Assembly: GCF_024138125.1 (NCBI RefSeq)
Contig: NZ_CP099993.1
Span: forward strand, 2,480,001-2,544,000
Reading direction: 5' to 3'
From: Halorussus salilacus
GTDB taxonomy: Archaea > Halobacteriota > Halobacteria > Halobacteriales > Haladaptataceae
DNA length: 64,000 nucleotides
Shown: piece after piece, positions 40,687-51,462 of the stretch
Numbering within the stretch: the stretch's first letter is position 1
Layout of the letters: each line of letters opens with the position of its first letter
Translations under genes and position numbers: made by a program
Notes under the pieces: model-generated
The model's input: only the letters and a program-made list of their open reading frames with translations
Told to the model about the DNA's origin: nothing
The model's database searches: none

Positions 40687-41877
40687 TCAGAAGATATTCG
40701 CCTGCCGGTACACGCTGATGCCCTCGTTCGTGATGGAGTAGGGCTTTATCTCCCGGGAGTGGTTCGCGTCCCGTATCTTCTGGATTTCGACCGCGAGTCT
40801 GGTCTCCCGGAAGTCGTCGCCCGACCGGATGTACCGCAGGATGAACACGGCGTCCACGAGGTACTCGATGATGCCGTGTCGGGAGGCGTAAGGGTTGTCC
40901 TCGCTGGCCTCGCTGGTCAGCATGGTGGTCACGCCCGCCTCCTTGAGGCTCTTGGTGAAGTCGTACACCTCGTTTCGGCGGGTGGCCTGGTCGTCGTACA
41001 TCATCTCCAGCAGGGAGACCGAGTCGAGGACGAGTCTGGTCGCGCCGAACTCCTCGACGAGTCGCGGCAGGTCGTTGCGGATGGAGGTCAGGCTGTTTGC
41101 CATCTCGATGGGGTCGAGGTCGATGACCGCGAGTCGGCCCTCCTCCTGGTACTCGTCGAACTCCCAGCCCTTCTCGGTCGCGGTGTTGACGATGCGGTCG
41201 TGGCTCTCTTCGAGCGTGATGAACACCGCGTTCTCGCCCGCTTCCAGCCCCTCGTGGAGGAACTGGAGGCCGAAGGTGGTCTTGCCGGTCCCGGCCGACC
41301 CGATGGTGGTCATCAGCGACCGCTCGGGGACCCCGCCCTGTATCATGCTGTCGAGGCCGTCGATGCCCACGTCGACCCGCGGAATCGACGACTCGAACTC
41401 CTCGTCGTCGAACGACTCGGGTTCCCCTCCTCCGAACCCGGCGCCGGGGTCCATACCGAATCCGCCGCCCATGCCGAACTCGGCGTCGTCCCCACCGCCG
41501 AACTCCCCGTCGCCGCCGAACGCTCCCGCGTTGCTCCCTGCTTGGCCGCCCGCTCCCCCGCCCGGGGCGTTCCGGAACGCGGTGGCGAAGTCGTCCTCGA
41601 ACAACTCCGTGTCGTCGCCCGCATCGGCCGCGTCGTACGGGTCGGCGTCGGCGAACCCGCCCGACGACCCGCCGGACCGGTCGGGGGTCGGTTCGGCGTC
41701 GTCGCCGCCAGTTCGCTCGGGGTCGAACTCGGGTGCGTCCTCGAATCCGCTGGCGGACGCGGGGCGGTCGTCCGTCTCCGAATCGGAGTCGTCGTCCGGC
41801 GAATCGCGGTCTTCGCCGCTCGCTTCGTCCTCACCGCTCTCGCGGAGCGCTCGCTCGAACCAGTCGTCGTCACTCAC
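40687..41877 (-). CDS. KaiC/RAD55-like ATPase with long acidic N-terminus
   Basis: 396 residues from GTG 41877 ([20 protein letters not shown]); in-frame codons further up are a shadow. Residues 1-~175 are disordered: acidic, then Gly-rich. The C-terminal 220 residues are a KaiC/RecA domain with intact Walker A '[15 protein letters not shown]', catalytic Glu-Glu '[13 protein letters not shown]', and Walker B '[14 protein letters not shown]'. Probably a signalling or ring-forming ATPase. The target is unknown. Divergent from nadK. Confidence 0.88.
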
Positions 41878-42062
41878 GGCGACCAACTCCAGTCGGTCGA
41901 GCGCGGACCATGTCGGGCACCTCGGACCGACCGCATTTGAATGTTTCTCGCGTCGACTGTCGTTCGCGGGCCGTCCTCGGCGCGTCCTTTCCCGCGTCGG
42001 CCGTGTCGCGGGTCGTCGTCCACGCCGGGGGACTTTTGACGGGCGGGCGAGAAGGGTCACCG

Positions 42063-43982: not shown

Positions 43983-44183
43983 ATGAGCGTCACGGGCCTG
44001 TGTCAGATATGCGAGAGCCGCGAAGCAGAACACTCGTGTCCCAACTGCGGCAATCAGGTCTGCGAACGCCACTGGAACGACGGCATGGACCTCTGCGTCC
44101 AGTGCGCGCCGACCGGCGAGAACGTCGACCCCGACCGGGTGTCCCCCGAGGACCTCGACGACGATGACGTGATGACGTTCTAG
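43983..44183 (+). CDS. HIT-type zinc-finger small protein
   Basis: 66 residues from ATG 43983. 'CQICESREAEHSCPNCGNQVCERHW' gives CxxC, CxxC and Cx3H spacing, then 'CVQC', a treble-clef HIT-like finger that binds two zinc ions. The C-terminus is acidic. Function not known; such small haloarchaeal zinc proteins are thought to act in protein contact or regulation. Its TAG overlaps the stop of the convergent PyrF-like gene. Confidence 0.8.
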   Translation: MSVTGLCQICESREAEHSCPNCGNQVCERHWNDGMDLCVQCAPTGENVDPDRVSPEDLDDDDVMTF

Positions 44184-44989
44184 CGGCGCAACTGTCGCTT
44201 GAGTCGTCCCGCGGCCTGCCGCGCCGCGGCGGCGTAGGCGTCGGCGTCCGGTTCGCGTCCCCGTCCCGCAGTCTCCCCCGCGTAGAGGACCTCACGGGAG
44301 ACGTTCACGAGTCCGACGCCGTCGGCGGTCGCGTGCTCGGCGACTTCCGGGTCGTTGCGCGCGCCCCCGACCACGAGGAAGGGCAGGTCCGGGGCGCGCT
44401 CGCGGAGGGCCTCGACGTCGTCGGCCGACCCGCCGACGAGCAGGCCCACGTCCCCCGCCGCCTCTTCGGCCCACTCCCCGGCGAGGTCGGCCGCGCGCTC
44501 GGCCAGCGTCTCCCCGTCAGCGAGTTCGAGGTCCTGCAGGTCGCTCGCGCCCGAGTTGGGCGTCCGACACACCACGAATACCCCGCGGCCCGGTCGCGAG
44601 AGCGCCGCGGCGCTCTCGCGACCGAGGTACGGCGAGACGGTCAGGGCGTCGGCCGAGTCGAGCAGGGTCGCGTGCTGGCGCGCGGCCGCGCCGACCTCGG
44701 CGCGCTTGCCGTCGAAAATCACGGGGACGCCCTGCGCCTGCGCGTACGCGAGGGTCTCTTCGAGCGCGGTCCAGCCGTCGGGAGTTTCGTAGGCCGCCAG
44801 ACTGGCGGTGTAGGCCGCGGCGTGGTCGCTCGTCGCGTCGATGATTCTGCGATTGAACGCCCGCCGGGGGTAGTCGTACTCCCGGCAGTCGGCGGGGAGC
44901 CGCGACGGGTCGGGGTTCAGGCCGACCGAGAGGACGCCGCCCGTGGTTCGAATCCGGTCGCGGAGTCGGTCGGAGAGCGAGAGGGTCAC
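44180..44989 (-). CDS. PyrF-like (OMP decarboxylase family) protein with altered active site
   Basis: 269 residues, clearly homologous to archaeal/type-2 orotidine-5'-phosphate decarboxylase by order of motifs: 'VLSVGLNPDPSRLP', 'RAFNRRIIDATSDHAAAY', 'VIFDGKRAEVGAAARQ', 'VVCRTPNSGASDLQDLEL'. But residues needed in OMPDC differ: GLD is GLN, the Lys of the KPN-type strand is Thr (YTASLAAYE), the final Asp of DxKxxD is Glu (DGKRAEVG), and the phosphate-binding 'SRG' and glycine loop are 'SRE' and 'GGARNDPE'. A 34-base palindrome (44591-44624) lies in the gene. Likely a paralogue with another role or an inactive protein, unless it is the only copy. Annotation as pyrF would be unsafe. Confidence 0.85.
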   Translation of the reverse strand: MTLSLSDRLRDRIRTTGGVLSVGLNPDPSRLPADCREYDYPRRAFNRRIIDATSDHAAAYTASLAAYETPDGWTALEETLAYAQAQGVPVIFDGKRAEVGAAARQHATLLDSADALTVSPYLGRESAAALSRPGRGVFVVCRTPNSGASDLQDLELADGETLAERAADLAGEWAEEAAGDVGLLVGGSADDVEALRERAPDLPFLVVGGARNDPEVAEHATADGVGLVNVSREVLYAGETAGRGREPDADAYAAAARQAAGRLKRQLRR

Positions 44990-45087
44990 GCCGGGAGTTG
45001 CGAGGGCGAAGGCAAGGCTCTTTTCCTCCGCGGTTTCCCGACCGCCCCTCCGCAGGTATCAAGTCACCCTCGCCCCAAGTCCGGGTC

Positions 45088-45744
45088 GTGACCGTCGACG
45101 CCGTCGTCTTCGACTTCGATTACACGCTGACCGTGCCGGACCGACCCCGTCAGGAGGTGCTCGACGAGGCGACCGACGCCGTGGGTGCCCCGCGGCTGTC
45201 GCGCGAAGCGTACTTGGATGCCCATTCACGCCACCTCGACAGCGACACCAGGGTGCCAATCTTCGCCGAACTCCTGCCCGAGGACGCCGACATCGACCCC
45301 GAGGCGCTCGCCGACGCCTACCGCGAGAAGGTCGCCGACTCGCTCGTGGCGGTCGCGGGCGTCCCCGGCCTGCTCGCGGCCCTCGGCGAGGAGTACAGGC
45401 TCGGCCTGCTCACGAACGGCCCGGCCGACGCCCAGCGGAGCAAACTCGACCGCTTCGACTGGGTCGAGGAGTTCGACGCGATAGCGATCACCGGGAACCT
45501 CGACGCGGGCAAGCCCGACGAGCGGGCCTTCCGGGCCATCCTCGACGCGCTCGGCGTCGACCCCGACGAGGCGGTGTACGTCGGCGACGACCCCGACGCC
45601 GACGTTCACGGCGCGCAGGCCGCGGGGATGTACGCCGTCCACGTCGTCTACGAGGGCGGCCCCGACCCCGTGCCGGACGCCGACGCCGTCGTCGAGCGCG
45701 ACGCGCTCGCCGACGAGCTACCGGATATCGTCGCCCGACTGTGA
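45088..45744 (+). CDS. HAD-superfamily hydrolase
   Basis: 218 residues from GTG 45088. Motif I 'VVFDFDYTLTV' (DxDxT), motif II 'LLTNG', motif III Lys in 'NLDAGKPDERAFRAI', motif IV 'VYVGDDPDADVHGAQAAGM'. A phosphatase or related hydrolase with a small alpha-helical cap; substrate unknown. The last 27 bases overlap the end of the convergent gene at 45718. Confidence 0.92.
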   Translation: MTVDAVVFDFDYTLTVPDRPRQEVLDEATDAVGAPRLSREAYLDAHSRHLDSDTRVPIFAELLPEDADIDPEALADAYREKVADSLVAVAGVPGLLAALGEEYRLGLLTNGPADAQRSKLDRFDWVEEFDAIAITGNLDAGKPDERAFRAILDALGVDPDEAVYVGDDPDADVHGAQAAGMYAVHVVYEGGPDPVPDADAVVERDALADELPDIVARL

Positions 45745-46193: not shown

Positions 46194-46646
46194 TTAGCCT
46201 TCGGCTTTGAGTTCCTCGCGGGCGTCGGCGGCCTCCTCGCTCGCGTCGATACCCCTCCGGCGGGCGTAGACGACCGCCGCCGCCTCGATGGTGACCCCGA
46301 GGTCGCCTTGGAGTTCGTTTATCTCGGCGACCGCGGTCTGCTTGTCGGTCCCGGCCGCGACCACCTCGTCGAGCAGGCGCTCGAAGGTCGAGCGCTCCTG
46401 AAGGATGGACTCGTCGGGCACGAACTCCTCGGGAATCTCGACCTCGGAGGGGTCGAACTCCGCGACCACGTCGCCGTCCTCGCGGGCGAGCAGGCCCCCG
46501 CCGCTGGCCACGTCCACGAGGCGCTCGGCCTGGTCGGGCGAGAACCAGTCGCGGTCGAGCGACAGCGCGACCACGAACTCGCTCTCGGGCATCGACTCCT
46601 TGCCCTTCTGCTGGAACGGGGCGGCCACCGCGATTCGCAGGCTCAT
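46194..46646 (-). CDS. DUF2240 family protein
   Basis: 150 residues from ATG 46646 (MSLRIAVAAPFQQKGKESMP); the open frame upstream is not coding. 'SEFVVALSLDRDWFSPDQAERLVDVA' and 'LQGDLGVTIEAAAVVYARRRGID' match the archaeal DUF2240 family. Function unknown. Codon use is as in its neighbours. Divergent from the S8e gene. Confidence 0.85.
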   Translation of the reverse strand: MSLRIAVAAPFQQKGKESMPESEFVVALSLDRDWFSPDQAERLVDVASGGGLLAREDGDVVAEFDPSEVEIPEEFVPDESILQERSTFERLLDEVVAAGTDKQTAVAEINELQGDLGVTIEAAAVVYARRRGIDASEEAADAREELKAEG

Positions 46647-46730
46647 CGCTCGGAAGGGCGCGGGTCGGGGGCCTAAATGTGACGGTCTCGGGCGGGGTCG
46701 TCGGCCGAGCGCCCCGGAAGCTAATCCGAG

Positions 46731-49734: not shown

Positions 49735-51174
49735 TCAGAGACGATTTCTCGCTTCGATCTCGGCCCGTCGCATCACCTCGCGTACCGCCACGTCGGCCTC
49801 TCTCGCCACCGCCGCGCAGTCGTCGTACTCGGCGCTCACGTCGTACACCTCGCCCGCGTCGTCGCTCGCGATTTTCACGTCCACCTCGTAACGGTCGCCG
49901 TCGAACTCGACGGCGACCGTCTCGAACGCTCGCTGGGCAATCCACCGGTGGGTCGCGCCTGTCTGGCGAATCCCGAGGGTTCCGGTCTCCTCGGCGAGTC
50001 GGCGGGCGACCTTCCGGGCGTCGTCGGGCTTGCAGACGACCTTCACGAGGTGGCCCGGCCGGGACTTCTTCATGGTGAGCGGGACGACCGACACGTCGCG
50101 CGCGCCGACTTCCCTGAGCGACTCCTGGAGGCCGCCCAGAATCTCGGGCGGCGCGTCGTCGAGGTTGGTTTCGAGGACCGCGACGTCGTCGTAGACGAGG
50201 TCCCCTGCTCTCTCCGTCTCGCTCGCTCCCACCATCGCCCGCAGGACGTTCGGGTGGTCCGGGAAGTCGTACCCGCCAGCGCCGTAGCCCGACGCGGTGA
50301 CGTTCAGCGCGGGGAGCGCCTCGACGCCCTCGGCGAAGTGCGCGAGGATGGCGGCCCCGGTGGGCGTCAGGAGTTCGGCCTCGACCGGGCCGCCGCGGAG
50401 CGACCAGTCGGCGCGCTCGGCGATCTCGACCACGGCGGGCGTCGGGACGGGGTAGGTGCCGTGGCTCATCTCCATCTCCCCGCCGCCGGTCGAGACCGGG
50501 AGCGTGACGATTCGCTCGGGCGCGAGGTCGTCCACGAGGAGCGCCGTCCCGACGATGTCGGCGATGGCGTCGTCGGCGCCGACCTCGTGGAAGTGCGTGG
50601 ATTCGAGGTCGGTGCCGTGGACGCTCGACTCGGCCTCCCCGAGGAGTTCGAAGACCGCGAGGGCGTCGTCCTCGACGCCCTCGGGGAGGGCCATCGACTC
50701 GACGATGTCGACGACTTCGGGGTAGGTCCTGAGCGGCCCCGAACCCTCGGCGTGGGTGTGGTCGTGGGTGTGGTCGTGGGTGTGGTCGTGGTCGTGGTGG
50801 TCGTCGTGATGGTCGTGGGTGTGGTGGCTGTTGTGGTCGTGGGTGTGGTGGCTGTTGTGGTCGTGGCTGTGGTCGTGATTTCCGTCGCCGTGAGAATGGT
50901 CGTGGTCGTGGTCGTGGCCGTGGCCGTGGTCGTGGTCGTGACCGTGGTCGCGGTCGGTCTCGCTCTCGCCCCCGTCGCCGTCTTCCCCGTCCAGCAGGAC
51001 CGAGACGGTCGTCGCGGAGATGCCGTTCTTCTCGGTCGTTCCGACCTCGTAGGTCACCCCGAGCGCGTCCTCGACCGGCGCGAGCGCATCGCGGTCGGCC
51101 CCAGCGGCCAGGAGGGCGGCGAGGAGCATGTCCCCGCTCGCGCCCATCCGGCCGTCGAATGCGAGCGTTTGCAT
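49735..51174 (-). CDS. larC: Nickel-pincer cofactor protein LarC with His-rich linker
   Basis: 479 residues from ATG 51174 (MQTLAFDGRMGASGDMLLAA, the conserved LarC start). LarC inserts Ni(II) into the pyridinium-dithiocarboxylate pincer cofactor of lactate racemase-type enzymes. Between residues ~77 and 145 there is a linker of alternating His and Asp (HD/HT/HS repeats), about half His, coded by GTGGTCGTG-type repeats (about 50750-50945). This may store or deliver nickel. The C-terminal domain, 'LETNLDDAPPEILGGLQESL', is intact. larB/larE are not seen here. Confidence 0.92.
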   Translation of the reverse strand: MQTLAFDGRMGASGDMLLAALLAAGADRDALAPVEDALGVTYEVGTTEKNGISATTVSVLLDGEDGDGGESETDRDHGHDHDHGHGHDHDHDHSHGDGNHDHSHDHNSHHTHDHNSHHTHDHHDDHHDHDHTHDHTHDHTHAEGSGPLRTYPEVVDIVESMALPEGVEDDALAVFELLGEAESSVHGTDLESTHFHEVGADDAIADIVGTALLVDDLAPERIVTLPVSTGGGEMEMSHGTYPVPTPAVVEIAERADWSLRGGPVEAELLTPTGAAILAHFAEGVEALPALNVTASGYGAGGYDFPDHPNVLRAMVGASETERAGDLVYDDVAVLETNLDDAPPEILGGLQESLREVGARDVSVVPLTMKKSRPGHLVKVVCKPDDARKVARRLAEETGTLGIRQTGATHRWIAQRAFETVAVEFDGDRYEVDVKIASDDAGEVYDVSAEYDDCAAVAREADVAVREVMRRAEIEARNRL

Positions 51175-51462
51175 ACAGGTAGTGGGGCGGTTCGTAGCGA
51201 AAAAGCCGGTGGTTCCGGTCGGGGGGACCGTCTTCACCCTCGGAGCGCCCCGAGCTGAAAGCCGATATTAAACCGGGCCCGAGTACGCCGAAATAATCAC
51301 GGGGACGCAAAACGGCTTTGTAGCGCGAACACGTATGCAAATCCATAGCATGCGCACGAAGTTCCCGCCGCTCTCGGCCGGTTCGACGGTGGAATCTCCC
51401 GGTAGCAAAGGACTTATCCCCGACGGACGCGGATTGTCAAACAATCCCCGTACGCCCTAATC

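Follow-up and report, generated by a model that had tools for sequence, protein, structure and literature searches.

The window, a 64,000-nucleotide stretch of the Halorussus salilacus genome, contains a gene for a PyrF-like protein between two conserved neighbours. The features at this locus are as follows.

44180..44989, minus strand: PyrF-like paralogue, GTG start, 269 amino acids plus stop (ORF translation); 15 Halorussus members including the window copy
43983..44183, plus strand: gene for a small zinc-finger protein, convergent, its 3' end overlapping the paralogue stop; conserved neighbour
45088..45744, plus strand: HAD-family hydrolase gene, divergent; conserved neighbour
46194..46700, minus strand: DUF2240 protein gene; locus marker
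44990..45029, minus strand: conserved 40-nt block upstream of the paralogue, its spacing to the start codon constant; probable core promoter

In profile searches, the paralogue matched PF00215 with 46.8 bits (cut-off 27) and the NCBI subfamily-2 pyrF equivalog model TIGR02127 with 172.6 bits (cut-off 110.6), while the NCBIfam models of 3-keto-L-gulonate-6-phosphate decarboxylase (KGPDC) and hexulose-6-phosphate synthase gave no match. Because the paralogue scores above the TIGR02127 cut-off, routine annotation would name it pyrF. An AlphaFold2 model based on 28 sequences is a barrel (pLDDT 82.9, pTM 0.85), and its best solved structural matches are all OMP decarboxylases (OMPDC): 3r89 (Z 28.0, rmsd 3.1, 262 residues aligned) and 3qw4 (Z 27.7, rmsd 2.1, 231 residues aligned). 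Thus, the paralogue is predicted to fold as a complete OMPDC TIM barrel, a likeness that does not show function. The profile match and the predicted barrel agree with the PyrF-like order and length (269) claimed in the original prediction, which was made from the DNA sequence only.

Identity over positions -40 to -1 averages 0.787 in the 15 genomes vs 0.39 further upstream, and the upstream regions of the paralogue and of PyrF in the family look somewhat alike around position -27 (CC[TA]TGACC). The conserved block is probably the core promoter of a leaderless transcript. Scans for sigma-70-type promoters and terminators, models that do not fit archaea, gave no match.

Two other genes in the window were noted. 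The gene at 49735-51237 (minus strand) encodes a protein of ~500 amino acids, which we take to resemble a nickel-insertion (LarC-type) protein and which has a long His/Asp-rich stretch. The product of the gene at 40687-42060 (minus strand), presumably a KaiC/RadA-like ATPase, has a long Gly/Asp-rich N-terminal part; the gene lies beside NAD kinase-like and folE2-like genes, an arrangement kept across the genus.

Loss of OMPDC active-site residues

OMP decarboxylase (PyrF) catalyses the last step of UMP synthesis and is a model for extreme catalytic proficiency. We aligned the 15 paralogues, including the window gene, with 17 intact Halorussus PyrF, 10 PyrF of the same family and 28 PyrF of other families, and numbered the residues D20, K42, D70, K72 and D75 as in the Methanothermobacter enzyme. 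All of these residues as well as S127, Q185 and R203 are present in 55/55 intact haloarchaeal PyrF. The corresponding segments of the window gene are the following.

44909..44923, minus strand: beta-1 loop GLNPD, residues 23-27; Asp20 replaced by Asn (paralogues: Asn 13/15, Ser 1, Asp 1; intact PyrF: Asp 55/55)
44786..44812, minus strand: YTASLAAYE, residues 60-68; Thr in place of the KPN-motif Lys42 (all 15 paralogues have T, S or A here, all 55 PyrF have Lys)
44696..44713, minus strand: DGKRAE, residues 93-98; Asp70 and Lys72 kept in 15/15 paralogues, Asp75 replaced by Glu (position 75: D in 10, E in 4, A in 1)
44546..44569, minus strand: CRTPNSGA, residues 141-148; Pro in place of the Ser127 that contacts the pyrimidine (all 15 paralogues have Pro, all 55 PyrF have Ser)
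44345..44374, minus strand: VVGGARNDPE, residues 206-215; stands where PyrF has the phosphate-gripper loop VPGVGAQGGD, shortened by 2 residues and without Gln185; conservation 0.91 among paralogues
44282..44299, minus strand: SREVLY, residues 231-236; phosphate Arg203 kept, the following Gly replaced by Glu (Arg and Glu in 15/15 paralogues, Gly in 54/55 PyrF)

The catalytic tetrad K42-D70-K72-D75 is therefore incomplete: K42 is lost in all paralogues and D75 is changed in five, including the window gene. Moreover, the pyrimidine-loop Ser and the gripper Gln are both absent from 15/15 paralogues; the position of Q185 is occupied by Ala in 14 and by Thr in one, next to the 2-residue deletion. 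By contrast with these losses, R203 is retained throughout, and Pro144, Asn212 and Glu233 are new invariant residues of the paralogue.

All the strings on which the original prediction was based (GLNPDPS, YTASLAAYE, DGKRAEVG, SREV and GGARNDPE) were found in the 269-residue translation, and the proposed replacement of the glycine-rich gripper loop was borne out by the alignment against the 55 PyrF. The claim that only D70- and K72-like residues remain was correct in that D20, K42 and D75 are changed while D70 and K72 are kept, but it overlooked R203; similarly, SREV differs from the SRG phosphate loop in its Gly-to-Glu change and not in the Arg itself. The replacement of Ser127 by Pro is an additional loss that had not been listed. 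As had been proposed, the comparison with intact haloarchaeal PyrF addressed whether the catalytic residues are merely displaced; this was rejected, as no gap other than the gripper-loop deletion lies near them in the alignment, and the residues are lost. Chance or sequencing error was likewise rejected because each of the 15 orthologues in the genus lacks K42, S127 and Q185. In total, the sequence identifies the paralogue as a type-2 PyrF homologue in which the OMPDC active site is gone, and the caution against the name pyrF was justified.

From family knowledge, we take the residue numbers of human OMPDC to correspond to the positions aligned here. In the human enzyme, the tetrad consists of K281, D312, K314 and D317', while D259 contacts the ribose, S372 the pyrimidine, and Q430 and R451 the phosphate (PMC12631982). 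The loss of K42, S127 and Q185 removes part of the charge network, of base recognition and of phosphate gripping and, thus, it is very unlikely that the paralogue has OMP decarboxylase activity.

With OMPDC subfamily 2 (TIGR02127, PF00215), represented by intact Halorussus PyrF, the Leishmania donovani 3qw3 domain and Anaerococcus prevotii 3r89, the paralogue has in common the profile, the length, the TIM barrel (Z 27-28), the DxK motif and the phosphate Arg; it differs in lacking K42, D20 (in most members), S127, Q185 and the PGxGAQGG gripper loop and in its variable D75. Members of the OMPDC suprafamily such as KGPDC and hexulose-6-phosphate synthase have acquired new functions with DxK kept and the K42 position changed; both have Glu at that position and bind Mg2+. 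The paralogue shares with them the retained DxK and the changed K42 position; however, it has T/S/A where they have Glu.

The ancestral pyrF locus and a second, intact pyrF

Two PF00215 matches, and no more, were found in the genome (3.60 Mb, 4 contigs, completeness 99.95): the paralogue and a stronger second copy (114.2 bits at C1:837697-838368) in the ORF G000:C1:837637-838443. The motifs of the latter (GLDPD, FKPNAAFYE, DAKRADIGNT, CRTSNPGG, VPGVGAQGGD and NSTRGI) make up a complete OMPDC active site. Thus, the search for a second pyrF that had been proposed beforehand uncovered one with every catalytic residue, and the possibility that the paralogue is the sole pyrF of the genome was rejected. 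Intact PyrF co-occurs with the paralogue in 14 of the 15 paralogue genomes; no PyrF was found in the fifteenth, G301, of which the assembly is 62% complete.

The paralogue is present in 15/18 Halorussus genomes. Samples of 292 and 391 haloarchaeal genomes that span the class revealed it in no other genus, and a single PyrF is encoded by each of the ten non-Halorussus genomes of the family. The additional matches in G194, G235 and G281 were rejected as similar paralogues of other genera, since they resemble pieces at contig ends or a contig present twice; in G275, the paralogue profile matched once. In the tree, the 15 paralogues group as a single clade (support 100/100), as do the intact Halorussus PyrF. 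In the early-branching G303, D20 and DGKRADIGNT are kept while K42, S127 and Q185 are already lost. Divergence is greatest for the G024 member (L077:7520-8365), which is shortened by a few residues at its end and has VGETSNDPD in place of the otherwise constant GGARNDPE loop. A variable Asp/Glu-rich insert follows the DLQDRE motif in the beta-5/beta-6 region of most paralogues (L074-L085) and is absent from the window copy, G273 and G303.

In 10/10 other members of the family, the zinc-finger gene and the divergent HAD gene flank an intact pyrF, and the DUF2240 gene comes next in most of them; linkage of HAD or DUF2240 genes to pyrF was also seen in several other haloarchaeal families. In 14 Halorussus genomes, this zinc-finger/HAD slot is occupied by the paralogue. 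In G293 (L074), the paralogue is linked to the zinc-finger gene but lacks the usual folE2 and DUF2240 neighbours within the 16 kb examined, and the pair seems to have moved. Three genomes, G147, G162 and G295, have no paralogue in this slot: a gap of ~50 to 350 bases separates their zinc-finger gene from the adjacent HAD gene. The shared position between the zinc-finger, HAD and DUF2240 genes supports that the altered gene is a descendant of the ancestral pyrF. Intact Halorussus PyrF (L001:1444-2250 and relatives) is encoded at a site that differs from that of other haloarchaea and adjoins a pantoate kinase-like or membrane protein gene in several genomes. It sits on a long branch with no clear donor among the haloarchaeal genomes across the class, and AU tests of four groupings, bearing on duplication vs transfer as the origin of this copy, all gave p ~0.5.

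Selection, the altered pocket and its interpretation

To measure selection, pairwise NG86 omega was calculated for 91 paralogue pairs and compared with a neutral simulation. Omega is 0.15-0.53 over all pairs (mean 0.35) vs 0.17 for intact PyrF of the same genomes; the neutral simulation, run with the observed third-position composition, gave means of 1.24-1.39 and a minimum of 0.94. Paralogue differences at codon positions 1, 2 and 3 are 0.184, 0.168 and 0.380, and the reading frame is open in 15/15 genomes. We conclude that the paralogue is under purifying selection, about half as strict as that on PyrF. A pseudogene was rejected, as omega never exceeds 0.53 while neutral values start at 0.94 and the frames are open. 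At the same time, the twofold higher omega indicates that constraint is relaxed, and the absence from 3/18 Halorussus genomes that the paralogue is dispensable.

Near-invariant PyrF positions are changed in the paralogues at 27/49 sites on the pocket face vs 17/84 elsewhere (Fisher p = 5.5e-5, for pocket-face segments that were picked after seeing the alignment). For the nine classical residues alone, loss is not significantly commoner than at other invariant positions (p = 0.16). Conservation among the paralogues themselves is slightly higher on the pocket face (0.839) than in the remainder of the protein (0.791; p = 0.0175). The most constant loops are CRTPNAGA (0.93), GLNPD (0.92) and VGGARND (0.91), and the least conserved parts of the pocket are b2 with the K42 region (0.76) and b3 with the DxKxxD/D75 region (0.67). 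Because decay would leave the pocket variable and a new use would fix it, the conserved pocket speaks against decay.

Altogether, the paralogue is a genus-specific, selected and catalytically disabled PyrF at the ancestral pyrF locus. It would be the vertically inherited occupant of this locus; an intact pyrF at another site would have taken over UMP synthesis in the Halorussus lineage, and the old-locus copy would then have lost OMP decarboxylation. The protein keeps the TIM barrel in the predicted model, as well as the phosphate Arg and the buried pair D70 and K72 of the Asp-x-Lys motif, while its pocket would have been re-made by loss of K42 and of the pyrimidine Ser, shortening of the gripper loop and addition of the invariant Pro144, Asn212 and Glu233. 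The combination of the retained D70-x-K72 and R203 with the newly invariant residues suggests that this pocket binds a different small ligand, with or without converting it. We consider it fairly probable that OMPDC activity was lost and the pocket of the old-locus copy was re-made for another small ligand, probably phosphorylated because R203 is kept, and perhaps converted; however, Glu233 directly follows the phosphate Arg and could repel a phosphate group. More tentatively, a new enzyme or metabolite sensor may have evolved in place at the ancestral locus with Asp-x-Lys kept and the pocket re-made, intermediates such as G303 surviving. The original suggestion of a pseudoenzyme or a new function in the same fold is thus favoured over decay by the intact second pyrF, the lost residues, the purifying selection and the conserved new pocket.

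The main rival is a regulatory pseudoenzyme that forms a heterodimer with intact PyrF and tunes or inhibits it, an idea that arises because OMPDC active sites are shared between two subunits. Two residues of each site, Asp317' and Thr321', are donated by the adjacent chain (PMC12631982), the OMPDC fold is preserved in the predicted model of the paralogue, and intact PyrF accompanies the paralogue in all but one of its genomes. However, the partner-donated Thr is kept in only 2/15 paralogues and Asp75 is changed in a third of them, so that the paralogue would mostly spoil the site of its partner; moreover, the strongly conserved loops b1, b5 and b7 are at the pocket. We therefore regard such a heterodimer as unlikely. 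That the paralogue retains OMP decarboxylase activity with substituted residues is hardly credible: the TIGR02127 score and the retained D70, K72 and R203 would fit, but the tetrad Lys, pyrimidine Ser and gripper Gln kept in every intact PyrF are lost from every paralogue, and an intact PyrF is present anyway.

A redundant old copy slowly on its way out would account for the absence of the gene from G147, G162 and G295, for an evolutionary rate about twice that of PyrF and for the much diverged, early-ending G024 member. It accords poorly with the open frames, with omega values below the neutral minimum, with new motifs such as VGGARNDPE that are common to the paralogues and with the conserved upstream block, and we hold it to be quite improbable. 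The conserved Arg-rich C-terminal stretch GETAGRGRRRGQDDYAAAARQ and the variable acidic insert in most paralogues would suit a scaffold or binding protein of the same fold in which the pocket is ligand-free and the surface does the work; since this leaves the invariant D70, K72 and R203 and the conserved re-made pocket unexplained, it is very improbable. In comparison with these alternatives, we favour the re-made, ligand-binding pocket.

Pseudoenzymes derived from duplicated metabolic enzymes have in common with the Halorussus case the catalytic loss, the retention of fold and selection, and an active paralogue in the same genome; in the open-access literature, we found no OMPDC pseudoenzyme and no paper on Halorussus pyrF. 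In practice, the paralogue is an annotation trap, as the NCBI pyrF equivalog model accepts it and it holds the position of the real pyrF at the locus; consequently, the wrong gene could be removed when pyrF of Halorussus is deleted to set up uracil selection. For the family, a lineage that remains under selection after losing the catalytic residues, in which sister species represent early and late intermediates and the cell also has an intact paralogue, offers a series for studying how the function of this active site changes.
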